In this document: piece after piece, positions 22,874 to 47,318 of the stretch
How positions within the stretch are numbered: position 1 is the first letter of the stretch
Layout of the letters: every line of letters begins with the position of its first letter
The notes under the pieces: generated by a model
Told to the model about the DNA's origin: nothing
The model's input: only the letters and a program-made list of their open reading frames with translations
Databases searched by the model: none
DNA from: Microcaldota archaeon
GTDB taxonomy: Archaea; Micrarchaeota; Micrarchaeia; Micrarchaeales; Micrarchaeaceae
NCBI GenBank assembly: GCA_021816885.1
Contig: JAKAWS010000007.1
Span: 1 to 51,811 of the forward strand
Length of the DNA stretch: 51,811 bases
Direction of reading: 5' to 3'
Program-made: the position numbers and the translations under genes

Positions 22874-23305
22874 ATGGATAAGAGATTTAGTTGGATAAAT
22901 ATGTCGAATGGACTTCGACTTTTGTTTATTGTGTTGCCGATGTTGCTCGGATTCGTGTCGATAGCGACTGCTCAGCTCGGAGGTATTGGTACTGGTACAT
23001 CGGCCGGGGTCAGCACTGTCGAGCAAACACTGTGCAGCATATACAATGCCATACATAGTTTGGTGTTCGTAATAGCTCTTGTGTTGATAGTTCTTGGCGG
23101 AATACTTTATGCAGGTGCGCATATGGTGCCTGGAGATACAAGAGGTAAGCTGCAAGGATACTCATGGACGATGATTATAGGCGGGATAGTGGGCATAGTC
23201 ATAGTACTGCTTGCGCCGTGGCTTGTCGGACTGTTCGCTAACAGTAGCGGTGCAACAGGATTTTCCACATCGTTATGCGGGATTGGCGGGTTCGGCGGTC
23301 TCTAA
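22874..23305 (+). CDS. VirB2/TrbC-like (CedA1-like) pilin subunit
   Basis: A 143-residue membrane protein with a signal-peptide-like start (hydrophobic about residues 15-32, ending SIATAQ) and two further helices at about 55-82 and 98-122. They are joined by a short charged loop, PGDTRGKLQGY. Signal peptide plus two helices with a small basic loop is the plan of VirB2/TrbC conjugative pilins and of their archaeal relatives such as CedA1. It has two cysteines in mature outer parts (CSIYNA and SLCGIGG). GAGGTAAT precedes the ATG. It opens the region of six VirB6-like proteins and the VirB4-like ATPase, which strengthens the reading. Confidence 0.72.
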   Translation: MDKRFSWINMSNGLRLLFIVLPMLLGFVSIATAQLGGIGTGTSAGVSTVEQTLCSIYNAIHSLVFVIALVLIVLGGILYAGAHMVPGDTRGKLQGYSWTMIIGGIVGIVIVLLAPWLVGLFANSSGATGFSTSLCGIGGFGGL

Positions 23306-23320: not shown

Positions 23321-24055
23321 ATGGCGAATGTGCTCAGGAATGCCTTTGAGACATATTCAGGGCATTTGGAGCTAATCGCCTTTTCAGCTATCTCTCTTGT
23401 CCTAGCATTTCTGATTCCGGCAATCTCTCCTTTTCCTACGTTTCTTGACCTTGGCTCAGAATTTGTCAGAACAGCGAGCGTGTTCTCGAACCTGACCGCA
23501 GTCGACCTTGTCATAATCATTGTTTCCACAATGTTTTCCATCCTGTTTCTCAGCTTTGCGATCGTCATGGTAAACATAACCATAAAGTACAGGAAGACAA
23601 GGGTAAAGATAGGCAGCGAGGTAATCCGTGCTCTGGAGAAATACACCGGAAATGTGTTTATCATCCTTTTCCTATTCACGTTCATACTTATGGCAGTTGA
23701 CATAGTCTCATACTCTTTTGTGGGCAGCACGGCCGGACTGATAACCGCAATAGCGGGACTGCTTCTAACCCCGTTCTTTTTCTATGCGCCATCTTCTATA
23801 GTGATAGATGAGAAGAAGGTAAGACATGCGTTAGGGGCAAGCTTCTCATTCATCTCAAAGCGCTTCGGATACCTTCTATTATGGCTGATTGTGGCGATAG
23901 CGTTTCTTACAGCCTCTGACCTTTTGTTTATGCCGCTGGGTCCACAGCTGTCAGGATACGTTCTGTTGTTCGTGGATTCGATTCTGATACTTCCTTTCCT
24001 GCTTATACTCCAGGGGGAGATGTACATAAACAGGTACGACATGCTCAGAGGCTAG
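23321..24055 (+). CDS. Six-TM membrane protein of the T4SS-like locus
   Basis: A 244-residue hydrophobic protein, not recognised. Membrane segments fall at about residues 16-38, 60-90, 108-130, 135-155, 184-205 and 210-232, with a cytosolic loop KYRKTRVKIGSEVIRALEKY between the second and third. The fold resembles generic membrane families such as DUF6159-like proteins rather than VirB6. AGGTAAGCTGA precedes the ATG, 15 bases after the pilin gene, so the two probably form one transcript separate from the VirB6-like run, which has its own promoter. Confidence 0.72.
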   Translation: MANVLRNAFETYSGHLELIAFSAISLVLAFLIPAISPFPTFLDLGSEFVRTASVFSNLTAVDLVIIIVSTMFSILFLSFAIVMVNITIKYRKTRVKIGSEVIRALEKYTGNVFIILFLFTFILMAVDIVSYSFVGSTAGLITAIAGLLLTPFFFYAPSSIVIDEKKVRHALGASFSFISKRFGYLLLWLIVAIAFLTASDLLFMPLGPQLSGYVLLFVDSILILPFLLILQGEMYINRYDMLRG

Positions 24056-24081
24056 ATTCGAGAGGATACAGACTTAAACAA

Positions 24082-24110
24082 GGTTTAAATAGCTTATATC
24101 ATTATATAAG
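24082..24110 (+). promoter_or_regulatory. TATA box and 7-bp inverted repeat before the six-paralogue operon
   Basis: GTTTAAATAGC (about 24082-24092) is a TATA element about 25 bases before the ATG at 24113. Directly after it, CTTATAT (24093-24099) and ATATAAG (24104-24110) form a perfect inverted repeat with a four-base centre, lying over the expected transcription start. This is a natural place for a repressor to bind. Confidence 0.5.
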
Positions 24111-24112
24111 TT

Positions 24113-25324
24113 ATGCTGAAACACATTGCAGCTGCTGTTCTGTTCGCATTGATGTTTCTACCTTTTGGTCATGCTTCAACATTGCCTGCCCCGTTTGTAT
24201 TTACCGGCATAATAAACTGCAACCTCACGTCGCAGTCAACAATAAACTCATGCGTAAGCAGCACCTTGACGCTATTCTTTGGACTGGTCATCGTTGGCGT
24301 GCTTCTCTCGTTGGCGATAGTCGCCCTGGCGTACATTGTCTCCAAAACATTTGACATCGGACGACTGGAGGGGTGGTACAAAGGGGAATTATACGAGACG
24401 GTAAAGACGCTCATCATATTAGGTTCTATCGTCTCTGTCCTTATAATAATGAGCGGGATATCCCTGGCGCTTGCTGGCGGCACCGCCGCATCTGGCACAG
24501 GAATAAGCAAGCTCATATCGAATTTTGATGGGCTTTGGTCTGCCGCATACAACGGATACATAACCCCTACTTTCCAGAAAAGCATAAGTGCAACATATAT
24601 TGTCGGGGGACTGTCTGTCGGGGTCGGCGCCCTCAAGAGCATCAATATCGGAATCACAGACAATGTGAATTTCGAATTTTTTGTTTTGGCAAGTGGTTTT
24701 AATGCCAATCTTTACACGAGTAGCATACTGGAGTCTGCGCGTGGATTCTCTTTCTTAAACGCATTGATGGATATAATTATAATCCCTGTAGATATACTGT
24801 TTGGGGTGTTGAATTACACCTTTTACATAATAGTCGGGGTTGGCCTCATCGGTCTAATACCGATAGGGATTGTACTGAGAGCCATACCGTTCCTAAGGGG
24901 TTTGGGCGGAACATTCATAGCGATGGGAATAGGGCTTTGTCTCATATATCCGAGCTTGCTCGTGCTGGTAAATATGCCGATAACTAATTACCTAAACAAT
25001 GTATTGCATCCGCCTGTGAACCAACCAGCAACGCATAATTATCCAGCTATACTGAGTTACGTCCAGGACATAATCACAGGCATAACAAATCTACTGGGGA
25101 AGACCTTTCTTGCGACTGTCGGAGCTTTCTACACTGGTTTCTACACCCCGGAGTTTGGAATATACCCGGTACTGAATTTCTCGACATACTACGCTATCGG
25201 CGATGTCCTGCAATTCATACTAATAGCAGTCGATTTGCTAATCGGTATAATAGCAACCGACAATATCGCTAAACTGATGGGCGGTTCTGTAAAGTTAGGT
25301 ATAGGCAAATTCAAGATTGCATGA
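24113..25324 (+). CDS. VirB6/TrbL-like polytopic membrane protein, paralogue 1
   Basis: A 403-residue protein with a signal-peptide-like start, a short Cys-containing outer segment, then about seven helices. Two features recur in all six tandem relatives. One is an early membrane segment entered through a short E-hydrophobic-x-E motif (GELYETVKTLIIL near residue 98). The other is a late signature R-x5-R-GLGG...AMGIGLCLIYP near residue 258-283. The C-terminal helix ends in a glycine-rich cytosolic tail. The plan resembles VirB6/TrbL inner-membrane channel proteins of type IV secretion and CedA, but sequence identity to them cannot be tested here. It overlaps the next gene by ATGA. Confidence 0.7.
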   Translation: MLKHIAAAVLFALMFLPFGHASTLPAPFVFTGIINCNLTSQSTINSCVSSTLTLFFGLVIVGVLLSLAIVALAYIVSKTFDIGRLEGWYKGELYETVKTLIILGSIVSVLIIMSGISLALAGGTAASGTGISKLISNFDGLWSAAYNGYITPTFQKSISATYIVGGLSVGVGALKSINIGITDNVNFEFFVLASGFNANLYTSSILESARGFSFLNALMDIIIIPVDILFGVLNYTFYIIVGVGLIGLIPIGIVLRAIPFLRGLGGTFIAMGIGLCLIYPSLLVLVNMPITNYLNNVLHPPVNQPATHNYPAILSYVQDIITGITNLLGKTFLATVGAFYTGFYTPEFGIYPVLNFSTYYAIGDVLQFILIAVDLLIGIIATDNIAKLMGGSVKLGIGKFKIA

Positions 25325-26553
25325 CGAGAATAAATAAAATCATTGTTCTGATCTCCGTCCTGTTAGTGTTAACTATCGTAGGTGCGGCAGCAGGCCAATC
25401 TGTCCCACAAACGGCCAATAGCTGCACTCTGGGCGGTGCTTATACATCAAACTGGTTGGGCCTGAACTTTATAGTCATCCTTCTCGGTTTCACTGTTATT
25501 GGAATAGTCTATGCAGCTTCAAGGTTTCTGCCCGCAAAGGCCAGTTCATTGATTCACGAGATGTCTAAAGTAGAAATAACCCAACTGGCAATAAGCGTAA
25601 TCATAATACTGATCTTGCTCTCTGCATCGCTCGGTGCATGTTCTTTGTCGAGCAGCATAGGATCGTCCCTGCTGAATACCCCAAATCTCAACCCTTTCCA
25701 GTACTCCGAATATTACCTTGAATCACTTTCAATAAACTCCGGCTTGAGTCTGCTTAGCTATATCTACACTACCGGGCTCAGCTACGCGATATGGGGCGCT
25801 GCAATACAAAGTCTCGCTCGCGATTTTATACCTCTGAATTACGGCTCAAGTTTTGGGGGCAGTATATCTATAGCGTTCTCTGGTGGGCTAGACCTATCGA
25901 AACTATTCAATATTCTCTCTGCCGTATACATGGATATGTTTTCAGAGATTCTAATAATAATGATAGGTTCGTTGTTCCTGCAATGGATATCCATACCATT
26001 AATACAGAGTTTTGCTTTTACTGTCCTGCTGCCCTTCGCACTGATAATAAGGTCGATATCATTTGCAGGTGCCGGCAACCCCGGACTTAGAGAAGCAGGC
26101 AATGCGATACTCGCACTTGCAGTAGCTTTCTATATAATATATCCAATGATGATAATGATGAACAGCTATGTCATATCCTACGCATTTAGTCCAAGCAACC
26201 CGCTGTATTCATGCCAGAATTGCCTTAGTTCCGAGCTAACTCCATTAACCATACCAAAATCTTTCTTCTCCTCCCTGTCAAGCTACAATTACAAAAGCAG
26301 CCTATTTGGCGGACTTGTATCCCCGACTATAGGGAGTTTTGTAAGTGGTCCTCTTCTGCAAAATATCGGACTAATCTCACCTATCGGGATTTTTGATCAG
26401 GCTCAGGCGGTCACATCCGGAATTGCAAAATACATATTTATGGGAATATTCATGGTCGGTATAGATCTGATGGTTACAATCGGATTTGCCTCAAGCCTAA
26501 CGAAGGCGCTAAATGCCGGGCTGGGCAACGTAAATTTCTGGAATAAATTGTAG
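25321..26553 (+). CDS. VirB6/TrbL-like polytopic membrane protein, paralogue 2
   Basis: A 410-residue member of the tandem set. It starts with a signal-like helix ending AAAGQS, and the early motif is KVEITQLAISVIIIL. The late signature is modified: IRSISFAGAGNPGLREAGNAILALAVAFYIIYP carries an insertion of about four residues and lacks the GG pair of its siblings, suggesting a divergent role in the assembly. A Cys-x2-Cys (SCQNC) lies in a late outer loop and could form a disulfide. It is coupled to paralogue 1 by ATGA and ends eight bases before paralogue 3. Confidence 0.68.
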   Translation: MTRINKIIVLISVLLVLTIVGAAAGQSVPQTANSCTLGGAYTSNWLGLNFIVILLGFTVIGIVYAASRFLPAKASSLIHEMSKVEITQLAISVIIILILLSASLGACSLSSSIGSSLLNTPNLNPFQYSEYYLESLSINSGLSLLSYIYTTGLSYAIWGAAIQSLARDFIPLNYGSSFGGSISIAFSGGLDLSKLFNILSAVYMDMFSEILIIMIGSLFLQWISIPLIQSFAFTVLLPFALIIRSISFAGAGNPGLREAGNAILALAVAFYIIYPMMIMMNSYVISYAFSPSNPLYSCQNCLSSELTPLTIPKSFFSSLSSYNYKSSLFGGLVSPTIGSFVSGPLLQNIGLISPIGIFDQAQAVTSGIAKYIFMGIFMVGIDLMVTIGFASSLTKALNAGLGNVNFWNKL

Positions 26554-26560
26554 TGTCATT

Positions 26561-27913
26561 ATGCTTGATATATTGCTTAATACGCTGATACCCCAAGAAG
26601 GAGCGCTAATACCTCTCGCAGTATTGGCTTTACTGATAAGTTCGGCTATCGTATCCATATGGTACATGATAGGGCTTATAATAAACGACAATAGGATCAA
26701 AGCCTCCGCTATAGGGGAGTTTACCCAAATGGTAGGGACGTTGATACTAATTGCCATAGTGATATACTCTTTAACGGTACTGTCTGCTGCACTGTATACA
26801 TCTCTGAATAGCACAAAATTAATGAGCCAGAGCGCTATCTCAACCATTTGCTCAAAATTAGAATCGACTTCCCAGCTTAGCATACTGGGTACCGGCACGG
26901 GATCGTTGTTAAGCTCTACCAACTCCCAATACCCTGGCATATGCTATTATATCAACTCTATTTCAGGAAGTAGCGTCAACACCCGCATAGATTATCCTCT
27001 TGCTGCTGCAGCGGTCGTCGATGCCAATGTAACAAATCAGATAGCCACACAGCTAAATAACCTCTTTGTGGTCGATGCTTATGTCGGATTCTACTCCAGC
27101 TTCAAAGATATCGTAGGGATCGGGGTAGGGATCCCAATAGTCTCAGCCGGCGTCACTCCTGACCTTGGCTTTGGGATGATATATGATTCGATGAAAGCCC
27201 TGGGTGCTCTAACATCCCTTGGTTTGGAGGCAAACATGGCGGCTCTTATAATATTGACGATATCCCTTTATGCATGGCCGTACCTGATCTTTGGCGGCAT
27301 CGTACTTCGCACAACAATATTTACGAGAAGGATTGGGGGATTGCTTATTGCAATAGGGATAGGTATTGTCTTCATATACCCTACCGTGCTGTCAATAGAG
27401 TACCTTACATTATCTAACCCATCCAGTTACGCGCAACTTAACGCATACTCCAATTCTTTCGGCCCGACGGTCGCCATCGCTCCAGGTCCAATAGACTCGA
27501 ACAGCATCTTATTGTCAAGTGCGATGCAGTCAACATACAAGCTCGATTTCTTCATCCTCCCAGATATAAGCAAGATAGCCTCGCAAGACGGTTGTTGGCC
27601 GCCTGGCGGCTACCTGATAGCTGGAGAGGCGAGCCAAATGGCGATATCTCTAGTCCCTATTGTATCCCAGTTAAACCTCATAGTCGCATTTACAGGAGGT
27701 TCGATACCGGACGTTAATATTGGCTTCTCAAGCTGTTCTGCCTCATCAGCTCAATCACTCATATTTGACCTATTTGATTTTTACGGCATAGGTGGAATAA
27801 TAATGTATTGGATTCCAATAATCAATATAATCATAACGCTTGTAGGTATATTGGGCCTATCGGGGCTGATGGGCGGCGACACAAATTTGGCCGGATTTGG
27901 TAGGTTGATATGA
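26561..27913 (+). CDS. VirB6/TrbL-like polytopic membrane protein, paralogue 3
   Basis: At 450 residues this is the longest of the six. It lacks an obvious cleavable signal and begins directly with a membrane segment (about residues 14-40). The early motif is GEFTQMVGTLILIA. The late signature RTTIFTRRIGGLLIAIGIGIVFIYP is close to the consensus. Two enlarged outer loops contain several cysteines (ICSKLES, GICYY, DGCWPPGG, FSSCSAS), so this subunit may present a disulfide-stabilised outer domain. It overlaps paralogue 4 by ATGA. Confidence 0.68.
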   Translation: MLDILLNTLIPQEGALIPLAVLALLISSAIVSIWYMIGLIINDNRIKASAIGEFTQMVGTLILIAIVIYSLTVLSAALYTSLNSTKLMSQSAISTICSKLESTSQLSILGTGTGSLLSSTNSQYPGICYYINSISGSSVNTRIDYPLAAAAVVDANVTNQIATQLNNLFVVDAYVGFYSSFKDIVGIGVGIPIVSAGVTPDLGFGMIYDSMKALGALTSLGLEANMAALIILTISLYAWPYLIFGGIVLRTTIFTRRIGGLLIAIGIGIVFIYPTVLSIEYLTLSNPSSYAQLNAYSNSFGPTVAIAPGPIDSNSILLSSAMQSTYKLDFFILPDISKIASQDGCWPPGGYLIAGEASQMAISLVPIVSQLNLIVAFTGGSIPDVNIGFSSCSASSAQSLIFDLFDFYGIGGIIMYWIPIINIIITLVGILGLSGLMGGDTNLAGFGRLI

Positions 27914-29004
27914 ATCGAAATGCTCTTTTACTGGCAAGATTACGAGTCCTGCCGGTTATACTGGTCTTGGTAGTGTTGCTTAGCACACTTGTAGGCTATT
28001 CGGCATCGCAGTCAACGCTCATCTCTGGTTTCTGTTCTGGCTTACTGTCGCCCAGCGGTACTAACATAACCAGCATAAGCATGCACAACCTTGTTGGTAT
28101 GAGCTTCTTGATAATATCGGTAATGTTACTGCTCATAGGGGCAGTATATGGGATAGGATACGCTTTCCAATACGAAAAGTTGAAAAATTTTTCAAAGATG
28201 GAATTCGGAGAGATAATCCTGACCGTGCTTATAATCTCCGTGTTTGTGGGCTCGGCTTTTGGAATAAATTCACTGTACTCAAGCGGGAACAGATTCGTGA
28301 CAGCATGCACATATCTATCCTCATCTTCGATAGGTACTATTCCCGGGATAATAACGGTCTATATCGTATCAACAATACTACAGCTGATTCAAAACATATC
28401 ATTAAACGCGGAAGTGAGCGCCCAATTCGTAGTCGGAGGACTTAGCGCGCAAATAAGCATGGCCCCGCTTACAGGGCTTTCATTGCTGACAAAACCAATA
28501 GGTTTTGCAATGTCTTTATTTTCGGTAACGTTGTCCCTAGATCTGGCAATTATCCTATTCATATCGCTGATCTATAACCTATTCCCGCTATTTTTATTTT
28601 CCGGTATAGCTCTTAGGACAATACCTTGGACTCGCGCAGCAGGCGGTGCGTTCCTTGGGATATTTATAGGTTTTTATGTGTTCTTCCCTGTCGTGCTTAC
28701 ATTAATGCTCGGAGTTGGAAATACCAGTACTGTATCTGTCCCAAGCGTCATCGCCCCCAATTTGCAGAGTACGCCCACAGCAGCCATATCACAAGCCGGC
28801 TCGGAAGTGAACTCAGTATTTGGGCAGAGCACCAATTCAGGACTACTGCAATGGTTTATTTCTGAGATCGCTGCGCCGAGCATATATTCTCTCTTCTCTG
28901 TTATAATCTCGCTCATCCTGTCCTTTGATTTTGCAGAAACCGTCGGAGACTACCTGGGTGCGCCAAGCTTTACCGGATCAAATATTCTAGGTAAATTGAT
29001 ATGA
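27910..29004 (+). CDS. VirB6/TrbL-like polytopic membrane protein, paralogue 4
   Basis: A 364-residue, most compact member. It has a signal-like first helix (about 12-30, ending GYSASQ), the early motif KMEFGEIILTVLIIS, and a clear late signature LRTIPWTRAAGGAFLGIFIGFYVFFP. Its mid-protein outer loop is short and Ser/Thr-rich, and it ends with a helix and NILGKLI. Start and stop are both ATGA-overlapped with the neighbours, so subunit stoichiometry may be set by coupled translation. Confidence 0.68.
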   Translation: MNRNALLLARLRVLPVILVLVVLLSTLVGYSASQSTLISGFCSGLLSPSGTNITSISMHNLVGMSFLIISVMLLLIGAVYGIGYAFQYEKLKNFSKMEFGEIILTVLIISVFVGSAFGINSLYSSGNRFVTACTYLSSSSIGTIPGIITVYIVSTILQLIQNISLNAEVSAQFVVGGLSAQISMAPLTGLSLLTKPIGFAMSLFSVTLSLDLAIILFISLIYNLFPLFLFSGIALRTIPWTRAAGGAFLGIFIGFYVFFPVVLTLMLGVGNTSTVSVPSVIAPNLQSTPTAAISQAGSEVNSVFGQSTNSGLLQWFISEIAAPSIYSLFSVIISLILSFDFAETVGDYLGAPSFTGSNILGKLI

Positions 29005-30116
29005 AGATAAGGAGGATCGAATGGCTGGCCTTTGCGGTTTCATTCATAGCTGTTGCTGTTCTAATATCACCCGCGGCAGGAGCCGTACCACAACCGCTTA
29101 ACCTGTCATACGGCCTATCCATTGCTGCGATAGCTCTCTTAGTTGTAATTACAGTTTCAGTAATTGCCTATGCGCTGAGTATCATGATAAATAATCCGAA
29201 CGCAGCGGCATGGACGAAGAATCAGATATTCGAAGGGATATTGTCTTTGGCGCTTCTCGTTGCATTCTCAAGCATGGCCTACGTCTTTTTCATAAACCCC
29301 CAAAACGGATATTCAGCAATAGGTCTGCTCCCATCACAATGCAAATCTTCATCTAACATATTTGAACTAGGGGAGTGCGATATGTCAACATTTAATAGCT
29401 ATGCATCTAGTCTAGTAGACATATCTTTATCCGCTAGTTATCTCGTGGGTCTATCTCCAGGCGTATCGATAAGTGCCTCGCTCGGGTCTCTTCCAAATCC
29501 TGCATTCCAATTCAGTGTAGGTGGATCTACTAAGTTAGGCTCCATCTTTCCCACCGATGCATTTCTTCCTATAACCGTAGTCATATCTGCGCTCCTTCTT
29601 GCTATGCTTGTCTCTTATACACAGGCAATAATCCTATCTCTCTCGATATTCTTCCTTTTGGTATTCATAACGCTTGGACTGGTTGCAAGGATATTCGGAT
29701 TCTCCCGCTCTTTTGCCGGTATTCTGATATCCATGGGGATAGGGCTTGGTCTAGTATATCCATTAATGGCAAGCATAACCTATGGGTTCATAATAGTCAG
29801 TATGTCTACTGCCTTCTCATCTCTGCTCACAAATCTCCCACTGATAATAACTGCATTACTTGCTTATATAGCTACATCAATAGGTGCCGGAGCAGGTTCT
29901 GCTACTGTTCTAGGTGCCGCGGCTTTCCTCAACGGAGGAGCCGGCGGGACATTATCATTCATAATACAGGCCTTCAAGGCAGTCGGATATATAATTCTGG
30001 GTCTCACAATCATACCAATGTTAAATTTTATCGTGCTGGAGACATTCATAACTGACTTTTCGGCAGCAATAGGCGAGAAGGTGACGTTCTTAGTCCTTCT
30101 AAGTGGTCTGATATGA
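29001..30116 (+). CDS. VirB6/TrbL-like polytopic membrane protein, paralogue 5
   Basis: A 371-residue member with a signal-like start (to AAGAVP), the early motif KNQIFEGILSLALLV (N and Q replacing the usual K/E pair) and a late signature ARIFGFSRSFAGILISMGIGLGLVYP. Two outer cysteines (QCKSSS and GECDM) flank a loop as in paralogues 1, 3 and 4. A glycine/alanine-rich stretch (GAGAGSATVLGAAAFLNGGAGG) before the last helices is unusual and may be a flexible or helix-packing element. It is ATGA-coupled at both ends. Confidence 0.68.
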   Translation: MKIRRIEWLAFAVSFIAVAVLISPAAGAVPQPLNLSYGLSIAAIALLVVITVSVIAYALSIMINNPNAAAWTKNQIFEGILSLALLVAFSSMAYVFFINPQNGYSAIGLLPSQCKSSSNIFELGECDMSTFNSYASSLVDISLSASYLVGLSPGVSISASLGSLPNPAFQFSVGGSTKLGSIFPTDAFLPITVVISALLLAMLVSYTQAIILSLSIFFLLVFITLGLVARIFGFSRSFAGILISMGIGLGLVYPLMASITYGFIIVSMSTAFSSLLTNLPLIITALLAYIATSIGAGAGSATVLGAAAFLNGGAGGTLSFIIQAFKAVGYIILGLTIIPMLNFIVLETFITDFSAAIGEKVTFLVLLSGLI

Positions 30117-31252
30117 GAAAGATTATATCTATTCTGATGGTTTTAGCGTTTTTTGGCGCGTTAACTTTAGTCCATACCCAAATTACTATGCTGCAGATAC
30201 CAATCACCTTACTATCAGCGCAGGGAGGTGGGTGCGGTCTACTGCCAAGCTCGGTTGCATCCCTAATATCAAGTTCAGCTCCATGGTACTGTCCGATAAA
30301 CCAACAAATATACTCGGAGTGGGCGCATTACCTTCCGCTTGGTATAATTGCTATAAGCATATCAATATCCATAGCAGCAGTAATTTTTGCCTTTGGGGTG
30401 GTCTTCAAGAATCAGACAATCCGAAACTTCGGAGTTGCCGAGCTGTACGAGGCATTTGCCACTGCGATAATCGTACTAGCTTTCCTATATGTCTGCGCTA
30501 TAATGTTCGGCTTTGTGCCATCTCTCTTCACCGGACAGCTTAATCCGTATGCTACCTCAATATTCCTTATAAAATCTACAATCAATCAAGCGGAAAGCCT
30601 TTATGCTGCATTATTTAACACATACCTCAAAGGATCAATGCTCTATTCCATAAGCTTAGGGTTCGGTAGCACAGGTACATTTGCTGCTGGCGGCAATCTG
30701 CTTAATGCCATATTGCAGGTGCCAATAAATCTTTATGGCATATTCGTCCTTGCCCCTACTCTGGAGATATCTAAGCTCCTGGCCGACGGCATAATCGCGC
30801 TATACGCCGAATATTACCTAATAATATTTTTTGCCACGGCCTCAATACCCGTCTTTATAATTCCCGGGACCCTTTTCAGGGCATTTATACCGACTAGGCC
30901 TTTGGGCGGCATGCTGATAGCACTCGGCATGGCATTTTATCTTGTCATGCCAATTATGTTTTCTGTCGGGTACTACTTTACAGCACCAAGCATAAACCAG
31001 CAATTTACCAATGCTGCATCACAGATAAACCTGTTTTCTCAGAATAACGGGTTCTTTACTAACGGTTTTGGCCAGAATTCCAACCTGGCGACTTCGGTCC
31101 GTGGTATCAGCAGCGGCATAGCCTCCTTCTGGTTCCTCGTTTTCTTCTATCCGGGACTGATTATTGCTGTGGTATATGTATTCGTGGTGCAGGTATCCAG
31201 CTTCATAGGCGGGGCGTCAAACATGAGCGGCCGTCTCAGATCCTTTATCTAA
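30113..31252 (+). CDS. VirB6/TrbL-like polytopic membrane protein, paralogue 6
   Basis: A 379-residue last member of the run. It has a signal-like helix, an outer Cys pair (GGCGLL, WYCP), the early motif VAELYEAFATAIIVL and the late signature FRAFIPTRPLGGMLIALGMAFYLVMP. The C-terminus ends with a long helix and a short basic tail (GRLRSFI), seen also in paralogues 3 and 4 (GRLI, GKLI). The next gene begins 50 bases on with its own promoter. Confidence 0.68.
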   Translation: MRKIISILMVLAFFGALTLVHTQITMLQIPITLLSAQGGGCGLLPSSVASLISSSAPWYCPINQQIYSEWAHYLPLGIIAISISISIAAVIFAFGVVFKNQTIRNFGVAELYEAFATAIIVLAFLYVCAIMFGFVPSLFTGQLNPYATSIFLIKSTINQAESLYAALFNTYLKGSMLYSISLGFGSTGTFAAGGNLLNAILQVPINLYGIFVLAPTLEISKLLADGIIALYAEYYLIIFFATASIPVFIIPGTLFRAFIPTRPLGGMLIALGMAFYLVMPIMFSVGYYFTAPSINQQFTNAASQINLFSQNNGFFTNGFGQNSNLATSVRGISSGIASFWFLVFFYPGLIIAVVYVFVVQVSSFIGGASNMSGRLRSFI

Positions 31253-31255
31253 GCC

Positions 31256-31270
31256 GCAAAAGATATAAAG
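31256..31270 (+). promoter_or_regulatory. TATA box before the twin VirB3/VirB4-N-like genes
   Basis: AAAAGATATAAAG lies about 35-45 bases before the ATG at 31303, which also has AGGTGCAGGG immediately upstream. A new transcript may therefore start here within the locus. Confidence 0.4.
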
Positions 31271-31302
31271 ATATGAAACAAATGATAAGATAAGGTGCAG
31301 GG

Positions 31303-32136
31303 ATGAACGTCAAGATACTGCTATTCATAATACTTGTCGCTGTCTCAGCCGGGCTGGTCGCAGCCGCCGCAGTCATTTCGCCAGCGCAGCTTCCATATCC
31401 TATTAAGATAACAATATTTGTCATCGGCCTTCTTATGGACATATTCGCGATTTTTCTCAAGGACTATTCGGAGTTCATGATAGGGATATTGGGCCAAAGG
31501 TCAAAGAACGTGGTGGTAAGCTCGGAAGCCCCATATGTATTTTCATCTGCAAGAGACGCTCTTGTGGTCAAATCCGGCGATGGCTACAACGCCACAATAT
31601 ACGTTAAGATACCGATATACCGATCTTCCACGGAGATGAAGATAGAGGAGAGGGTGGATTTTGCAAGAATGGTGGGGAGGATGGTCGGCCAGAGCAGAAA
31701 CGTAGCGCGCTACACAACAGGGATGTTCGTTATGAATAAGGACATGTATATACAGCAGCTTAGGGAGAGCATAAACGCTGCAGAGAACGAAGAATCGTCA
31801 GCAGTCACATCAGGCCAAAGCAGCGAAGAGTTGGCGAGAATCCGCGGCAAGCTTTCCATGTGGAGGAACATACTCGATAGCGTAAATTCGAATGTCTCAT
31901 ATGAGCAGATATCTTATGCGTCAGTGACTGCTTTCGGAACTAACGAATTTGAGGCAGTCAGCATAGCCCAGCAGCACGGCCGCGAGCTGATCTCCGGAAT
32001 CGGGACGCTTTTCGGAGTGCAGCCGGCAGTGATAACTGGCAGCGAACTTCTAAGGTTCATAGAACCAGAATACCAACTCCCCTACTCGACGATGGCGGAG
32101 AACATATCGAAAAGCGTCGAGGAAGAGGTGATATAA
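31303..32136 (+). CDS. Membrane-anchored T4SS-like protein, VirB3 plus VirB4 N-domain-like (copy A)
   Basis: A 277-residue protein with two N-terminal helices (about residues 5-25 and 33-52), then a cytosolic mixed alpha/beta domain of about 220 residues. That domain has a long helix after KIEERVDFARMVGRMV and ends near GVQPAVITGSELLRFIEPE. Two short helices joined to a domain with a late G-x-ELL-x-hydrophobic-F turn resembles VirB3 fused to the VirB4 N-terminal domain, here detached from the ATPase, which is two genes on. That is inference. The next gene has the same length and plan and overlaps by one base (TAATG). Confidence 0.65.
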   Translation: MNVKILLFIILVAVSAGLVAAAAVISPAQLPYPIKITIFVIGLLMDIFAIFLKDYSEFMIGILGQRSKNVVVSSEAPYVFSSARDALVVKSGDGYNATIYVKIPIYRSSTEMKIEERVDFARMVGRMVGQSRNVARYTTGMFVMNKDMYIQQLRESINAAENEESSAVTSGQSSEELARIRGKLSMWRNILDSVNSNVSYEQISYASVTAFGTNEFEAVSIAQQHGRELISGIGTLFGVQPAVITGSELLRFIEPEYQLPYSTMAENISKSVEEEVI

Positions 32137-32969
32137 TGTTTGATCCGGAGAAGCTGATGTTCATAATAATCGCCTTCCTTGTAGTGATAATAGGATTTGC
32201 CTTCGGCTCCTCTTTCAAGGGCATCTATTACCCTATCGCAATGTTGTTTGTGCTTATCGCCGCCATCTTCGTACTTGTAATGGGCTTTGCCGATACGATA
32301 TTCTTCCCGCTCCTTATGTCGGCTATCGGAATGAGGTTCCAGATAGCAGACGGTTACTGGATGTCGAGAGAGCAGAACTCGGTGATAAAGAACGTCAACG
32401 GACTCTACTACGCGACTGGGTACATATCCGCAAACCTCTTCCAGTACACATTTAAGCTGGAAATGCCTCTCGAAGAGGAAGAATCTAAGATGGAACAGGC
32501 GCCATCAAATTGGGAGAGGGCTGTAGCGACGCTTAGGTTTCCATGGAAATACAACGTTATATCTGCTGGCCTTGACGTACAAGACATCCGTTCCGAACTT
32601 GAAGGGAAAAGGTCATTCCAGGAATTCCAGCTTGCCAGGCTCATGCAATCCAGTAATCCCAGCGCTACAGCCATGCAGGACATACAGCGCGAGATAAATA
32701 TAATACAGACTAAGATGGATAGAATATCCGGAGGAGAGAAGCCTATTGCGACTCTTATGTATATAGAGACAACGTCAGTCGGGGTGAGCGAAAAGGCGGC
32801 AGCAGACTCTCTAAACAATCAAGCATCATCGATAAGCACGGCGCTCGGCGGATTTGATGTCCAGCTCGACCGCATAAAAGGCCGAGAGCTGCTAGCGCTG
32901 TTCAAATCCAATTTCGCTATACCGCAATCAATCGGCGAGCTCAATGACACATTCGACAAAATGGCATGA
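32136..32969 (+). CDS. Membrane-anchored T4SS-like protein, VirB3 plus VirB4 N-domain-like (copy B)
   Basis: A 277-residue tandem counterpart of copy A. Two helices (about 7-27 and 32-57) precede a cytosolic domain with a charged helical stretch (residues about 165-200) and a closing part, TTSVGVSEKAAADSLNNQ, then IKGRELLALFKSNF, matching the GSELLRFIEPE turn of copy A. In VirB4/TraC proteins a similar KG-x-ELL segment ends the N-terminal domain before the ATPase core. The pair could form a heterodimeric membrane dock for the ATPase encoded next (inference). Pairwise identity between the copies is low by eye. Confidence 0.65.
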   Translation: MFDPEKLMFIIIAFLVVIIGFAFGSSFKGIYYPIAMLFVLIAAIFVLVMGFADTIFFPLLMSAIGMRFQIADGYWMSREQNSVIKNVNGLYYATGYISANLFQYTFKLEMPLEEEESKMEQAPSNWERAVATLRFPWKYNVISAGLDVQDIRSELEGKRSFQEFQLARLMQSSNPSATAMQDIQREINIIQTKMDRISGGEKPIATLMYIETTSVGVSEKAAADSLNNQASSISTALGGFDVQLDRIKGRELLALFKSNFAIPQSIGELNDTFDKMA

Positions 32970-32976
32970 GAAGGCA

Positions 32977-32991
32977 AGCTCTATAAATATG
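32977..32991 (+). promoter_or_regulatory. TATA box before the VirB4/HerA-like ATPase operon
   Basis: CTCTATAAATATG lies about 40 bases before the ATPase ATG at 33027, and GGTG sits six bases before that ATG. Six genes follow with gaps or overlaps of a few bases, to 38545. Confidence 0.45.
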
Positions 32992-33026
32992 CTTTGCGGT
33001 AAATGGTTATATAAGCGGTGCCGCAG

Positions 33027-34556
33027 ATGAGTACTCTTAAGCTGCAATACATAATGAGCAATGAGATAGCGAAGCGCGCTTTTGTTTCGAGGCCGCCGGA
33101 ACCGCCGGCCAGCATCCTTTTAAATGACCCGTACAAGGCGATATTCGTAGGCACGACCAGTATATTCAAAGTGCCATTCAGTTGGTCGTTCGAGAACGTC
33201 ACGAACCCGCATATAGCTGTGGTCGGGATAACCGGCTCAGGAAAGAGCTACTTCGTGAAGACATTCCTTATACGCGCAAATTACGTATGGGGCACCAACG
33301 CGATAATAATAGATTGGGCCTCCGAATATAAAGAATGGGTGAGACAGAGCAATGGCCAGATTGTATCGCTTGGAAAAGGCGACTACCTGAACATACTCGA
33401 TCTGTCAGGTATACCTCCAATAAACAGGACCAAGCAGATAATGAATGCGCTGGAGATACTCACGGACATATCCATGTTTCCAGAACAGAGAAGGCTCACA
33501 GAAGAGGCGATAGAACAATCCTACACAAACATGGGATTTCGCCTTCCTGATGTGCCGCCAGAGAACAAGGAAGGCCCTACCTTACATAACGTTATAGCCT
33601 TGCTTCAGGAAAAGCTGCAAGAAGGCACTTACGAATATCCGGCAGAGATGGAAAACGCGATATACCGCCTAAGGCAGTTTGCCCGTGAGGGCCAGGACTT
33701 CTTCTCCAGAAAGAGCACGATAGACATGAAGAAGTTGTCTACATCCGGCTTGGTAGACATAGACCTTTCAGGGCTTCCGGACGAGCAGCACAGGGCACTA
33801 GCGGCGCTTGTAATACTTCAGATACTAAAGGAGAAGATGCGAATAGAGGGTTGGAACTCGGGCAAGGGGCTAAAGGCGCTTGTCGTTCTAGACGAAGCGT
33901 GGAAGATAGCCGGTGACGAAAAAAGCGATGCCGTCATGATAGTGAGGGAAGGTCGAAAGTACCAGTTCGGCCTTATAGTCGCATCGCAGAATCCTACCGA
34001 TATAAACGAGGCGATATTCTCGAATGTCGGTACGACCTTTATACTAAGGACGAGGTTCGAGAAGTTCCTCAATTACATACAAAGCTCGCTGAATTTCTCT
34101 GACACTATAAGGGAAAAGATATCGAGGTTCGGAGTGGGGCAGGCGGCCGTGGACATGGCGTTCCAGACAAATCTCAGCTTCCCGCAAGTGTTCACGTTAG
34201 AGAAGATCAGGGGGGAGGAGCCGTTATACGTATACAGGATAGATATGACAGACATATTAACAAAAGGGGAGATAGACTCCGGGACCCTGCCAAAGGACTA
34301 TCAATTCGAAGCGACGGAGTTGAAGAATAAGTTGATAGAGATAAACATGGGCGCCGAATCGATAGCATCTATAGTAGCAGCATTCGATCTGAGGAACAGG
34401 AGCCTCAGCATGCGGGATTTCATAGAACTTCTGACAAAGAACAGCTCTGGCACAAGGGATATAATGACGTTCCTAAAAAGCTTGAGCATAGACGACGTCA
34501 TTATCACAAGGATAATCTCGGAGATCGGAAGCACTCACGCAGAGACGGTAGTATAG
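33027..34556 (+). CDS. VirB4/TraC-HerA family ATPase (CedB-like)
   Basis: A 509-residue RecA-fold ATPase. The Walker A motif GITGSGKS is at residues 67-74, followed by IIIDWASEYKEW (the place of the DPxGEY motif in HerA/VirB4). Walker B ALVVLDEAWKIAG is near 283-293, and the SQNPTDI sensor-like motif near 317. A helical C-terminal extension of about 90 residues follows. It lacks the N-terminal VirB4 domain, which seems to be encoded separately by the two preceding genes. It is expected to power transfer of DNA or protein, or pilus assembly, by the adjacent membrane components. A VirD4/HerA-type DNA pump is the alternative. ATG 33027 is preferred to GTG 33018, which overlaps the ribosome site. 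Confidence 0.85.
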   Translation: MSTLKLQYIMSNEIAKRAFVSRPPEPPASILLNDPYKAIFVGTTSIFKVPFSWSFENVTNPHIAVVGITGSGKSYFVKTFLIRANYVWGTNAIIIDWASEYKEWVRQSNGQIVSLGKGDYLNILDLSGIPPINRTKQIMNALEILTDISMFPEQRRLTEEAIEQSYTNMGFRLPDVPPENKEGPTLHNVIALLQEKLQEGTYEYPAEMENAIYRLRQFAREGQDFFSRKSTIDMKKLSTSGLVDIDLSGLPDEQHRALAALVILQILKEKMRIEGWNSGKGLKALVVLDEAWKIAGDEKSDAVMIVREGRKYQFGLIVASQNPTDINEAIFSNVGTTFILRTRFEKFLNYIQSSLNFSDTIREKISRFGVGQAAVDMAFQTNLSFPQVFTLEKIRGEEPLYVYRIDMTDILTKGEIDSGTLPKDYQFEATELKNKLIEINMGAESIASIVAAFDLRNRSLSMRDFIELLTKNSSGTRDIMTFLKSLSIDDVIITRIISEIGSTHAETVV

Positions 34557-34859
34557 ATGGCAGGCAACTCGTATTCGATATCAAAAAGGGAGATAAAAAG
34601 GGCGCTCATAGCATATGGCGTGAGGGAACCGGAAATAGAGGCGCTCGTCGCTGACGCGGAGAAGAGACACATGCATATGAATGTGATAGCGTTTGTGCTG
34701 TTGCTCGAAAAGGTTAATCTAACAAGGAACAGGATAATACAGATAATGAGGAGGATAGGACTGGATGATATCAAGATAAGCAAGGTATTAGATATGGTAG
34801 ACGAGGAGAAGATGCTTGCGCAGGCTGGCCATATATACAAGGCAAGAATAGAGGTGTAA
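34557..34859 (+). CDS. Small all-helical protein of the T4SS-like operon
   Basis: A 100-residue, charged, predominantly helical protein with no membrane segment; I do not recognise it. It begins at the base after the ATPase stop, so translation is probably coupled. Basic patches (KREIKRALI and NRIIQIMRRIG) and an acidic C-terminal helix suggest a small adaptor that binds protein or nucleic acid. A role as accessory subunit of the ATPase is inferred from position only. Confidence 0.65.
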   Translation: MAGNSYSISKREIKRALIAYGVREPEIEALVADAEKRHMHMNVIAFVLLLEKVNLTRNRIIQIMRRIGLDDIKISKVLDMVDEEKMLAQAGHIYKARIEV

Positions 34860-34861
34860 AG

Positions 34862-35260
34862 ATGGAATCTAGGTGCATAATATGCGGGCTTGAGAAGAAA
34901 GGTCTCAAGGTCAAAGAGGATCATGTGATATACGTGATACGATGGTTCAAGAGAAATGTGAGCAGAAACGAGAAGGGCTACGATTTGGTCGTATGCAGAG
35001 ACTGCTACAAGAAGTATTCGAGCGCCAGAAGTTCGTACAATAGGAAGCTGTTCGCTTATCTTGGAATAGGCATACTTGCAACTGTGCTGTGGATTGCGGT
35101 GGGAGGCATTAAGCTCTACTCCATAGCTGCTGGCATAGTCCTTATCGCGTTCATGTACCTGCTCTCGCTGCTAAGCTACATCCCCGGCTTAGATGTGAAA
35201 AAGCCAGCTCTTGAAAAAGGAGCTAATGCGCGCAGCGACCGAAGCCACCGCAGAGAGTAG
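34862..35260 (+). CDS. Zinc-ribbon-like two-TM membrane protein of the T4SS-like operon
   Basis: A 132-residue protein. The N-terminal domain has CIIC (residues 5-8) and CRDC (about 45-48), likely one zinc site. Two hydrophobic segments follow at about 60-78 and 83-107, then a basic tail. The zinc domain would face the cytosol. No family assigned. It starts two bases after the helical protein and overlaps the next gene by 35 bases. Confidence 0.68.
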   Translation: MESRCIICGLEKKGLKVKEDHVIYVIRWFKRNVSRNEKGYDLVVCRDCYKKYSSARSSYNRKLFAYLGIGILATVLWIAVGGIKLYSIAAGIVLIAFMYLLSLLSYIPGLDVKKPALEKGANARSDRSHRRE

Positions 35261-36023
35261 TAATAAAAACATTCCCGCACAAAGGAATACTATGGCGGAG
35301 AAAGAGGCAGTTCTGGAAGAGCCCAAGATAAGCGAGTTTACCATAAGCGCAAAGCTCCTAGGAACAATGGCGGAGATAAGGCAGAGGGCAAGCTCGTTAA
35401 ACCTATTCGAGGTAAGGCAAGAGAACGACTCGTTGATACTGATAGATGTGGAAAGCCGCGATATCCAGAAGAATCCATACCTCTTTTTCATATTCACGCT
35501 AAAGAGCACCTCCTTATCAATACAGTACTCAATAGCAAAAGACACGAGCGAGCGCATCCGTCATCTTTTTATAATGAAAACACTAGCAGGACTACTATCG
35601 CTTATATATGACGTTTACCAAGTAGATGGCAAAAATTTCTATCAGCACATTGACTCGTCTATAGACAGCGTTCTCCAATCGCTTTCGCAGAGCTACAGTA
35701 CGTTATTCGGTAACTATGATTCTTTGCTTAACGATTACCGCGAGACAAAAAGGCTAAACATCGAACTTACCAACTCCAATAAGGCTCTGGTCTCAAGGTC
35801 TAGCGCGCTTAATGATGAGAACGAGCAGCTAAAATCTCGACTCAAAGAGCTCGAAAGCTATTCGGATCAATCGCTTATGGTCATGATAGAAGAATGGATA
35901 GAATCGCACGGTAACACAATCGACTTAGAGGAGTTCTCAAAGACAAAAAGAATCCCACAGCCGAGAGTCGAGCAGATACTGAATAAAATGGTGTCTCTTA
36001 GATACATAGAACTGAAGGGATAA
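35226..36023 (+). CDS. Coiled-coil protein with C-terminal winged-helix domain
   Basis: About 265 residues without membrane segments. An N-terminal alpha/beta part (to about 130) is followed by a strong coiled coil (about 150-210, ETKRLNIELTNSNKAL then LNDENEQLKSRLKELE). A winged-helix-like end follows (LEEFSKTKRIPQPRVEQILNKMVSLRYIELKG). It could couple the apparatus to DNA or act as the local regulator. ATG 35226 is chosen because GGAG precedes it; a TTG at 35211 and an ATG at 35292 are alternatives. It overlaps the zinc/membrane gene in another frame. Confidence 0.68.
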   Translation: MRAATEATAESSNKNIPAQRNTMAEKEAVLEEPKISEFTISAKLLGTMAEIRQRASSLNLFEVRQENDSLILIDVESRDIQKNPYLFFIFTLKSTSLSIQYSIAKDTSERIRHLFIMKTLAGLLSLIYDVYQVDGKNFYQHIDSSIDSVLQSLSQSYSTLFGNYDSLLNDYRETKRLNIELTNSNKALVSRSSALNDENEQLKSRLKELESYSDQSLMVMIEEWIESHGNTIDLEEFSKTKRIPQPRVEQILNKMVSLRYIELKG

Positions 36024-40784: not shown

Positions 40785-42308
40785 CTAACCAACGCTTCCT
40801 ACCGATACTTTGGGCATTACGCCGTTTGGCGGGTAGGCGCGGACACGTATCCACTGCCAAAACTCATTGCCACCGCAGCTTCTGGGACCCAGATAACCGC
40901 TTGCATAGTTAGTAGGGAATGAAGCAGTGCTCATAAATGCAGAATAATCCCTCTCCGCCGTAACCGGATTATTAGTCAGCCCATCGATTAGCGTATATAT
41001 GTGGTTGTTTCCATCCATCTCTCCGGCAGCGGATGGTGCATATTCAGTAAATGTAGTGGGTGCAGGATTACCTGTAAACAAAGCGTCTGGACCTGCGGAT
41101 GAGAGTGTCCCGCGCTCTGCCCATAAGTTAGTATCTGTAGACGTGCCCCTCCCCTGTGCATTGAACCATAATCCCATGTCGTCATTTGTGGCTCCGTTGC
41201 CATAAAAATCTATAACATACGGTGAAGCGAAGCTTGGTACTGAGGTCACAAATACGTCATTGCAGATAGTGTTGGTGCTTCTATAAGTAAATCCGTTGTT
41301 GACAGTATAGTTCATTCCGCTAACGATATACCAATTATTAGTGTTTAGGCTACTTCCAGCAAAGTTGTCATAGAAATTAAACATGCCAGTCCCATCATCA
41401 TATTGGGCATAAGTTGGGCTCAACTGCGGAGCCTCTCCAGTTGAAAGGTTGTTGAACAAGTTGGTTGTCATATTTGCGAAACCCATATAAATCGTGATCG
41501 AGCTCTGCGCAGGTATCTCCTGCGCCAGTTTCAGCCAGTATATGGTATTGGTGGATGTGTTGGAGTTTCCGCTCTCGAGCCAGCTTGGTACTGTGGTATA
41601 GTTCTGGTAGAAGAACTCTATGTTGTTCAGGTTCCCTGCCTCGTACGCCTTATACAGAGAGCTATTGATGTTGACTTTTTGCTGGAACGGTGCAGATGTC
41701 GGCACATTCTGCGTGTTTGTGATTGTTACCGGCACATAATACCGTATTGAAGGCGGTAGATTACCGATATATACTTGTGCGAATAACGATGCCGAAGGCA
41801 CCGTCACATTCACGTTTATAGGGTAGGTAGAATTTATTCCATCCACATTAACTACAGCAAGAGCGGTGTAGGCCGCTTTCAGCAGCAATGGACTGACCTG
41901 AAATACAGTAAGCGTCCTATTGACTATCGTGAGATTTTTTCCTTCGATTTTCGCTTGCTGCTCTATGCTGTTTATGTAAGTGCTCATATTAACTATTGTG
42001 CTGTTCTTTCCGGTGAGCAATGCTTTGACAGCGGATGCAGTGCTTGTTCTATTCGCTATGTTATTGGCCGAAATCCCTCTGGTGTCGATAATGTCAATGT
42101 CTGTTAACATCTCATTATGCAGGAAAGCCCTTATCTCAAGACCTGCCTTTGTGCCAATCGCCGAAACAGATTCTGACTCCGACAATTGGGTCGTCAATCT
42201 GTTTCCAGATATATTAAGTGATACGTATGTGAACACCTCCGCAAACATGAGTATAACCAATATCAATGTGGCAAGAGTCAGCAGTATTCCTTTCCTATTC
42301 CTTTTCAT
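40785..42308 (-). CDS. Surface protein with pilin-like N-terminus and DUF2341-like domain
   Basis: About 507 residues, last gene of a four-gene surface operon. After a basic RNRKG comes one hydrophobic segment (about 9-30). The middle (about 205-310) resembles DUF2341: VTITNTQNVPTSAPFQQKV, IEFFYQN, SWLESG, IYWLKL, ITIYMGFANMTT. A concanavalin-like C-terminal half starts at FNFYDNFAGSSLNTNNWYI. Many N-glycosylation sequons are present. ATG 42308 is preferred to TTG 42314; it overlaps the upstream gene's stop as ATGA. Likely an outer-surface structural or carbohydrate-binding protein. Confidence 0.75.
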   Translation of the reverse strand: MKRNRKGILLTLATLILVILMFAEVFTYVSLNISGNRLTTQLSESESVSAIGTKAGLEIRAFLHNEMLTDIDIIDTRGISANNIANRTSTASAVKALLTGKNSTIVNMSTYINSIEQQAKIEGKNLTIVNRTLTVFQVSPLLLKAAYTALAVVNVDGINSTYPINVNVTVPSASLFAQVYIGNLPPSIRYYVPVTITNTQNVPTSAPFQQKVNINSSLYKAYEAGNLNNIEFFYQNYTTVPSWLESGNSNTSTNTIYWLKLAQEIPAQSSITIYMGFANMTTNLFNNLSTGEAPQLSPTYAQYDDGTGMFNFYDNFAGSSLNTNNWYIVSGMNYTVNNGFTYRSTNTICNDVFVTSVPSFASPYVIDFYGNGATNDDMGLWFNAQGRGTSTDTNLWAERGTLSSAGPDALFTGNPAPTTFTEYAPSAAGEMDGNNHIYTLIDGLTNNPVTAERDYSAFMSTASFPTNYASGYLGPRSCGGNEFWQWIRVRAYPPNGVMPKVSVGSVG

Positions 42309-44047: not shown

Positions 44048-44049
44048 TT

Positions 44050-44598: not shown

Positions 44599-44601
44599 AA
44601 A

Positions 44602-47292: not shown

Positions 47293-47318
47293 CTGCCTCA
47301 CTATCTTTACGTGTGCAA

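Follow-up and report, generated by a model that had tools for sequence, protein, structure and literature searches.

Six divergent CedA/VirB6-like paralogues in a fixed order at a putative type IV secretion locus of Micrarchaeota

The window is a 51,811-nucleotide stretch of contig JAKAWS010000007.1 from a Microcaldota archaeon (assembly GCA_021816885.1). Between positions 24113 and 31252 it encodes six homologous polytopic membrane proteins, p1 to p6, inside a longer run of genes (Table 1). The coordinates and lengths that the initial annotation gave for the six were correct on re-check. So was its description of a coupled run, with a 4-nt ATGA overlap at four of the five internal junctions and a 7-nt gap between p2 and p3. 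The motifs said to unite the six fared less evenly. A late signature of two Arg residues, a glycine-rich stretch and a Pro is real, but looser than claimed. When the six proteins are aligned, the invariant residues are just R256, R262 and P280 (numbered as in p1). Four of the six have the GG pair; p2 has GN and p5 has AG there. Among the lines (each gene position being one line), p2 is the one that strays most frequently from the shared signature. An acidic motif, E-hydrophobic-x-E, is found in p1, p4 and p6, whereas p2 and p3 have E-x-x-Q and p5 has Q-x-x-E. In the translations it follows the first long hydrophobic segment and precedes the second, whereas it had been placed ahead of the first. 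Loop lengths are also line-dependent. The genus has two genomes, and between them pN/pS is 0.22-0.38 for p1-p6, with p6 the best-conserved line. Purifying selection acts on all six lines.

Table 1. Genes of the locus in order along the window.
Feature	Position	Strand	Description
VirB2/TrbC-type pilin	22874..23305	+	143 aa, signal and two hydrophobic segments
M6	23321..24055	+	244 aa, hydrophobic, several membrane segments; no homology to p1-p6
p1	24113..25324	+	CedA/VirB6-like line 1, 403 aa; ATGA overlap with p2
p2	25321..26553	+	CedA/VirB6-like line 2, 410 aa; pilin-like N-terminus
p3	26561..27913	+	CedA/VirB6-like line 3, 450 aa; longest, greatest length variation
p4	27910..29004	+	CedA/VirB6-like line 4, 364 aa; CedA model (NF041796) match
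p5	29001..30116	+	CedA/VirB6-like line 5, 371 aa
p6	30113..31252	+	CedA/VirB6-like line 6, 379 aa
X1	31303..32136	+	277 aa; membrane hairpin and VirB4 N-terminal-domain-like fold
X2	32136..32969	+	277 aa; paralogue of X1
VirB4/CedB/HerA-type ATPase	33018..34556	+	ATPase domain without large N-terminal domain
s100	34557..34859	+	small conserved protein, 3' of VirB4
s132	34862..35260	+	Cys-motif N-terminus, two membrane segments (read from translation)
s270	35211..36023	+	coiled-coil, probable winged-helix C-terminus (read from translation); start codon uncertain
L787	36182..38545	+	large; two membrane segments (the first N-terminal) with a long outside domain between them, and a cytoplasmic domain (topology read from sequence)

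The neighbours of the six genes are recognizable parts of a type IV secretion system (T4SS). The pilin passes the cut-offs of two Pfam families (TrbC PF04956, 30.0 bits against 27.9; T4SS_pilin PF18895, 29.3 bits against 26.6), and its position is conserved among relatives. The ATPase matches DUF87 (1.6e-18), AAA_10 and the TraG P-loop in Pfam, and CedD (1.7e-18), CedB (2.1e-18) and VirB4/TraC in NCBIfam. The VirB4 N-terminal domain is present as separate protein. One clue is the AF2 model of X1 (pLDDT 81), whose 14 best PDB matches are all chains of R388 TrwK/VirB4 (probability 0.97-1.00). Another is that X2 matches the N-terminal part of NCBIfam CedB (model positions 131-218, E 0.0013). The X1 model also carries an N-terminal membrane hairpin, which may be the counterpart of VirB3. 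M6, s100, s132, s270 and L787 do not score above any Pfam cut-off, and no Pfam family was found for L787. M6 is kept beside the six genes in the window's order and in family f15. Linkage to VirB4 is phylum-wide for s132 and s270 and extends over most of the phylum for L787.

What if these genes belong to a mobile element, either a conjugative plasmid or an integrative element, with the copies as cargo or decay? In favour of this, conjugative elements typically carry T4SS parts. However, topoisomerase VI-B, prefoldin, eIF-6 and deoxyhypusine synthase, found among the partly annotated flanking genes, belong to the core gene set. The relaxase family PF03432 and the coupling protein family PF02534 were searched for and are absent from the genome, and no plasmid relative of p6 was found. 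The mobile-element reading was rejected on these three grounds. The purifying selection on p1-p6 also speaks against it, as does the near-universal presence of VirB4 in high-quality genomes (46 of 46 in the window's order and 89 of 96 in the phylum). The data favour vertical inheritance at fixed chromosomal sites, and a mobile element is very improbable.

Assigning the six genes themselves is less simple. Searches of single p proteins against Pfam, PHROGs and NCBIfam returned nothing useful, and a PDB sequence search with a p profile had no match. The TrbL/VirB6 family PF04610 matches nothing in the genome, nor any of 34 family members searched one at a time, and therefore the label VirB6-like required other evidence. 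This came from CedA, a link that is visible only once many family members are scanned. The CedA model (NF041796), which stands for an archaeal channel of VirB6 type that imports DNA, has one match in the window's genome, inside p4 (28393-28716, E 2.6e-6). With E 0.01 as the limit, it matches 23 of 46 genomes, and every match that can be placed falls inside a p-family gene. Among 14 control genomes it matches Sulfolobus acidocaldarius only. The best score in the 46 genomes is 25.5 bits, against an equivalog cut-off of 330 bits. Judged by sequence, the p family is a relative of CedA and not a CedA member. With the AF2 model of p6 (pLDDT 84.6) as query, Foldseek ranks 7o3v TrwI/VirB6 chains second, fourth and 36th, but these matches are not significant (E 0.14, TM 0.27). 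The CedA match at p4 together with the VirB2 pilin, the VirB4 ATPase and the VirB4-NTD-like X1 bears out the earlier description of VirB6-type genes in a T4SS-related locus.

Is the likeness among the six merely that of hydrophobic proteins, so that they are unrelated or belong to a non-T4SS transporter family? The lack of Pfam matches would fit this. The profile comparisons do not. All 15 pairs of lines align in hhalign of ortholog profiles (probability 96.3-99.5%, E 2e-9 to 2e-23), whereas reversed profiles reach at most 7.5% and the unrelated polytopic neighbour M6 at most 5.8% against the p lines. The shared plan that had been proposed thus exceeds chance. The CedA matches in half of the genomes and the constant linkage with pilin and VirB4 are further arguments, and an explanation by hydrophobicity is extremely improbable. 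The pilin also aligns with the p2 profile (hhalign probability 91.8%). In a tree the p2 line forms a single clade with support 99; the clade status of p1 and p4 is not resolved there.

The initial annotation named one finding that would speak against six distinct copies, namely varying copy number with recent duplications. The opposite was found. All 65 clusters uncut by the end of the fetched sequence contain exactly six members in identical order; they come from the window's order and from at least ten further families. Position profiles built with one family left out label the hexad members of that family correctly in 162 of 162 cases. Where a genome has two hexads, the copies predict each other (A to B 66/72, B to A 90/90), and the duplication is of the hexad as a whole unit. 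When positions in other orders are compared with p1-p6 column by column, the best match lies on the diagonal for all six. The tree needs 12 label changes, against 81.5 when labels are shuffled and a minimum of 6. One comparison is less clean: when lines of the window's order are set against position models from other orders, identity is the best one-to-one assignment in only 20 of 34 loci, with p1 ambiguous. Because number and order are fixed and labelling carries across families, the copies are six fixed ancient lines rather than recent duplications.

Some apparent exceptions were considered and rejected. Raw matches suggested 8-19 copies per genome, but these counts are not copy numbers because long members are matched piecewise; after mapping, the count is 6 or 12, and several genomes carry a single-copy gene as well. 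A genome-wide look at ten genomes shows nine with their p-family genes in hexads, several of these having one additional single-copy locus, and the tenth (G074) with partial hexads at contig ends. Gaps in five clusters (L065, L070, L099, L127 and L153) are gene-calling artefacts or contig edges. The VirB4 neighbourhood alone gave the impression that other orders lack p genes, whereas a genome-wide search places them elsewhere, in hexads.

Micrarchaeota are tiny, mostly host-dependent archaea, and most of the phylum has the hexad arrangement as a core trait. It is also present in two cultured organisms with closed genomes, Ca. Mancarchaeum acidiphilum Mia14 (952,257 bp) and Ca. Micrarchaeum harzensis (989,838 bp). 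The available part of the Mia14 genome paper describes type IV pili and not the hexad locus, and that of the Ca. Micrarchaeum harzensis paper describes no such system, the hexad locus included. A few genomes of the window's order (G063, G081) have VirB4 and no hexad found in the assembly, through either loss or missing sequence. Outside the phylum, no hexad was found in 68 archaeal genomes with a profile built from Micrarchaeota members, so distant cases could escape it. A Ced-like locus with a single copy occurs both in the same genome as a hexad and in a basal family. This one-copy locus is likely the ancestral state.

How does this compare with known systems? The Ced system of Sulfolobales (CedA, CedA1, CedB, CedD and CedE; PMC9905601, PMC11868833) is likewise a chromosomal archaeal T4SS derivative with a VirB2-like pilin, a CedA/VirB6 channel and a VirB4-type ATPase. 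In both, the pilin is similar to the N-terminal part of a channel protein (p2 in Micrarchaeota). In both, the VirB4 N-terminal domain is divided among proteins, which in Ced are ATPases (CedB and CedD), whereas X1 and X2 are separate from the ATPase. The Micrarchaeota sequences score below the CedA and CedB cut-offs, and Ced has one CedA (with a paralogue, CedE, in Saccharolobus) in place of six fixed lines. The Ted system of Thermoproteales (TedA, TedB and TedC; PMC9905601) is a similarly minimal, chromosomally domesticated set of pilin, VirB6-like and VirB4-like proteins. However, one TedA is described and no hexad. The T4SS of Patescibacteria (PMC12102498) is also widespread in an ultra-small epibiont radiation and mostly lacks a relaxase, but is bacterial, and the accessible part of that source does not mention a six-copy VirB6 arrangement.

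The closest precedent is the set of five VirB6 paralogues in Rickettsia (PMC2653234), which also means that the earlier statement of one, rarely a few, VirB6 genes per T4SS was too low. RvhB6a-e of the Rickettsiales vir homolog system are several divergent, conserved paralogues in a host-dependent lineage, as here, and one of these lines is reported as lost in R. massiliae (PMC2653234). In contrast to the Micrarchaeota locus, that system is bacterial and diderm, with a nearly full vir set and five lines that have long extra domains. The p proteins also lack the VirB6/TrbL Pfam match.

Taken together, the locus probably encodes the central parts of a minimal type IV secretion machine that is chromosomal, resembles Ced and Ted, and has a channel of six co-assembling paralogues. 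The VirB2/TrbC-type pilin would be drawn out of the membrane. Power would come from a split VirB4-type ATPase, made up of the ATPase protein and the separate N-terminal-domain proteins X1 and X2 with a VirB3-like membrane hairpin. The channel, or pilus platform, would derive from one ancestral CedA/VirB6 protein that became six ancient, non-interchangeable paralogues. These would form a hetero-oligomeric ring on top of the VirB4 hexamer, and its pore would be asymmetric, with outside loops that differ from line to line. The favoured version is a hexamer in which each line occurs once, in fixed order. The cargo would most likely be DNA, either imported from kin or host or exchanged with them; protein transfer on cell contact is the next most likely option. 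We infer co-assembly, stoichiometry, the sixfold match to VirB4, cargo and direction from this arrangement.

The number six deserves comment. By analogy with pentameric VirB6, the initial annotation proposed one gene per position of a ring. In R388, VirB6 is indeed pentameric, but it is a homopentamer from one gene on a hexameric VirB4 base (PMC11294453, PMC12624023), with TrwK/VirB4 a hexamer of dimers below the TrwI/VirB6 pentamer (PMC9259494, PMC11294453). Since the pentamer sits on a hexamer, the six lines fit the ATPase and not VirB6. R388 is otherwise close in the match of X1 to TrwK, alongside the weak, non-significant match of p6 to TrwI; at the Micrarchaeota locus no outer-membrane parts, such as a VirB7/VirB9/VirB10 core, were recognised. 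In its most specific form, the proposal is an obligate hetero-hexameric pore in which each line occurs once and the circular order is fixed, to match the VirB4 hexamer. Such a pore, ancestral to most Micrarchaeota, would replace a homo-oligomeric channel and remove the five-to-six mismatch of R388. The chance of this is a shade under even.

Two other arrangements have to be weighed against this hetero-hexamer. One is that the paralogues form six separate channels, each homo-oligomeric (for example a pentamer, like R388 VirB6; PMC11294453), sharing pilin and VirB4 and differing in cargo, partner or stage. Several genomes have two hexads and one primary VirB4, so ATPase sharing seems to occur, and the line-dependent loop lengths also suit separate channels. 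However, such channels would be expected to come and go individually, which does not fit 65 of 65 clusters with six in one order and hexads duplicated whole, and translational coupling favours equal amounts. Separate channels are therefore unlikely. The other is a different hetero-oligomer, such as a hetero-pentamer with an accessory line or a ring with repeated subunits (3+3, or a 12-mer). The known VirB6/VirB5 stalk is fivefold, Rickettsia has five paralogues (PMC2653234), and p2 is the line most often off the signature. Against this, all six lines have the homologous core and all six are in every complete cluster. A different hetero-oligomer is on the unlikely side.

In Micrarchaeota, then, the single channel protein of other organisms appears to be replaced by six different sister proteins in a fixed order. 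The hexad lends itself as a natural test of VirB6-type pore construction, and of why R388 has five VirB6 on a sixfold ATPase. If the proposed pore is true, a homo-oligomer has been converted to a fixed set of six, comparable with MCM2-7. The hexad locus also marks the likeliest machine for DNA or protein transfer linking these archaea with hosts or kin.

Six consecutive genes of the window, p1-p6, had been described in the initial annotation as sharing one plan and as overlapping, or nearly so, at their junctions. The shared plan reflects homology. When ortholog profiles of the six, built from orthologs in 40 relatives, are compared pairwise, all 15 pairs align (probability 96-99.5%, E 2e-9 to 2e-23), whereas reversed-profile controls reach at most 7.5%. 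Only R256, R262 and P280 (p1 numbering) are invariant in the six-protein alignment. M6, the adjacent 244-aa multi-pass protein, gives no signal against the p-line profiles. The junctions are also as described, with an ATGA overlap at 4 of 5 and a 7-nt gap at the other. A comparison of the two genomes of the genus shows purifying selection on all six genes: pN/pS is 0.22-0.38 for p1-p6 and 0.10 for VirB4, with synonymous sites saturated. A/T-rich TATA-like boxes precede p1, X1 and VirB4, which suggests that this run of six (hereafter a hexad) may be a transcription unit of its own.

Coordinates of the features discussed
Feature	Position	Remarks
p1-p6	24113-31252 (+)	hydrophobic proteins of 403, 410, 450, 364, 371 and 379 aa
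CedA model match	28393-28716	within p4
TATA-like box, p1	24055-24113	A/T-rich
TATA-like box, X1	31252-31303	A/T-rich
TATA-like box, VirB4	32969-33018	A/T-rich
L787	36182-38545	large outside domain, two membrane segments, cytoplasmic domain
Pilin-like/lectin-like proteins	8104-9057 and 40785-47391	type IV pilin-like N-termini and lectin-like domains
Laminin_G_3 domain	within 42305-44077	
Single-copy locus of the same genome (contig C8)	L132 4886-8360 (~75886-79360)	TrbC-like pilin, one p-family protein, one X-like protein, VirB4-like ATPase

Is each copy an ancient orthologous line? The evidence on gene order, position and phylogeny answers that it is. Within the window's own taxonomic order, the best partner of each of p1-p6 lies in the same place. 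In other orders, a genome-wide family-profile search finds p genes away from VirB4, yet in runs of six and often with two runs per genome. A six-frame scan of all fetched clusters gives the order exactly 1-2-3-4-5-6 in 65/65 of those uncut by a sequence end. Moreover, position profiles for 27 other-order hexads, trained without the tested family, assign 162/162 genes correctly. We divided these hexads into two types according to their neighbouring genes, and training on one type and testing on the other gives 66/72 and 90/90 correct assignments. This cross-type prediction makes it most likely that the whole hexad was duplicated at once, when the six lines already existed. When the window's order is compared with the other orders, every column of the 6 x 6 profile matrix has its best match on the diagonal. 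Individual proteins are placed less clearly in this comparison, with identity assignment in 20/34 loci and p1 the weakest. In a tree of 122 proteins p2 forms one clade (99), as does p3 (69, weak), while p5 and p6 group in 18/19 (96) and 17/19 (94) cases; p1 and p4 are not resolved as clades. The tree requires 12 label changes, where the minimum is 6 and shuffled labels average 81.5.

The two hexad types differ in their surroundings. Downstream of one (L115, L119, L123, L150) lies the gene of a very large protein, ~1000-1850 aa long, whose start is lipoprotein-like and whose N-terminus has a similar Cys-rich pattern; it may be a surface partner of the adjoining channel. The other (L118, L124, L126, L128) is divergent from a gene reading like leucyl-tRNA synthetase and is often near a large secreted protein. 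A single primary VirB4 can coexist with two hexads in one genome.

Public genomes found with a VirB4 of the window's type are Candidatus Micrarchaeota MAGs, the closest being YP3.bin43. This VirB4 occurs in 46/46 high-quality genomes of the order and 89/96 of the phylum. The genomes surveyed are mostly MAGs; the hexad also adjoins the VirB4 genes in the closed genomes of two cultured Micrarchaeota, Mia14 (G010, locus L050) and Ca. Micrarchaeum harzensis (G031, locus L052). Two genomes, G063 (L043) and G081 (L159), have VirB4 and no hexad beside it or elsewhere in the assembly, through either loss or missing sequence. In G222 the hexad, X1 and X2 lie apart from VirB4, and in G018 the hexad is spread over two contigs; both still have six lines. 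At contig ends of G074 (C2, C11, C18, C22; L144-L147) there are four partial hexads of the own-order type, more than in its relatives, which may reflect an extra copy or mixed strains. Outside Micrarchaeota, the hexad was found in 0/68 archaeal genomes, a search of limited sensitivity.

One clue to the ancestral state is the second locus of the window's genome, which has a single p-family gene. This Ced-like mini-locus adjoins genes reading like SUF genes. Two genomes of family f24 hold the single-copy kind only (one p, X and VirB4, with the pilin found in one of the two). With these profiles, neither kind is detected in the basal families f23 and f25-f27 and part of f24. Of eight single-copy proteins tested, seven fall near p6 in the tree, yet none of the six position models fits them well. 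The simplest history would be that one channel gene gave rise to six lines before most of the phylum radiated.

What kind of channel is this? The p proteins match no Pfam family. The NCBI CedA model has a single match in the window's genome (E 2.6e-6). Among 14 control genomes this model finds only Sulfolobus acidocaldarius, and it matches 23/46 Micrarchaeota genomes, where all placeable matches are p-family genes. CedA is the VirB6-type channel of archaea (PMC9905601). In a structure search with the p6 model (pLDDT 84.6), TrwI/VirB6 chains of the bacterial conjugative system R388 rank 2, 4 and 36, without significance. The pilin profile matches the p2 N-terminus (probability 92%), a parallel to Ced, the DNA-import system of Sulfolobales, in which CedA1 is reported to resemble the CedA N-terminus (PMC9905601). 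The family is therefore named CedA/VirB6-like: by sequence it is a relative of CedA, below the cut-off for membership.

The pilin 5' of the hexad is above the Pfam cut-offs for TrbC/VirB2 and T4SS_pilin. On the 3' side follow X1 and X2 (277 aa each), a VirB4/HerA-type ATPase, and the conserved genes s100, s132, s270 and L787. The best 14 PDB matches of the X1 model (pLDDT 81) are all R388 TrwK/VirB4 chains, over ~190-210 aligned columns; for X2 the match is to the CedB N-terminal part (E 0.0013). The match of the 512-aa ATPase to CedB begins only at position 253. What is one VirB4 in other systems thus appears here as an ATPase plus separate N-terminal-domain proteins anchored in the membrane. 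Ced shows a related split, in which the N-terminal domains of CedB and CedD correspond to different parts of that of VirB4 (PMC11868833). In most of the phylum L787 is kept together with VirB4; it matches no Pfam family. The pilin-like/lectin-like proteins elsewhere in the window are probable surface adhesins.

The component parts are of an already known kind, archaeal derivatives of T4SSs. No phylum-wide channel of strictly six lines turned up in the literature searched, the nearest parallel being the five VirB6 genes of Rickettsia. In R388, VirB4 is a hexameric base joined to the membrane by VirB3, VirB6 is a fivefold platform where pilin assembles, and substrate is thought to pass through VirB6 (PMC11294453, PMC12624023). 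A matching set is encoded here: pilin, VirB6-like proteins, VirB4-NTD-like proteins with a membrane hairpin, and VirB4. The lines never number five or seven, their order is kept and they are translationally coupled, as would be expected if each line filled a distinct seat in one complex. VirB4/HerA ATPases are hexamers, so six seats would be a natural match. Most likely p1-p6 form a hetero-oligomer; whether it would be a hexamer with one of each is close to an even bet. What might such a channel carry? Self-transmission is unlikely because the genome has no PF03432 relaxase and no VirD4-type coupling protein. Perhaps there is contact-dependent transfer with a host, a rival to the best guess, which, by analogy with Ced, is that the system may serve DNA import or exchange.
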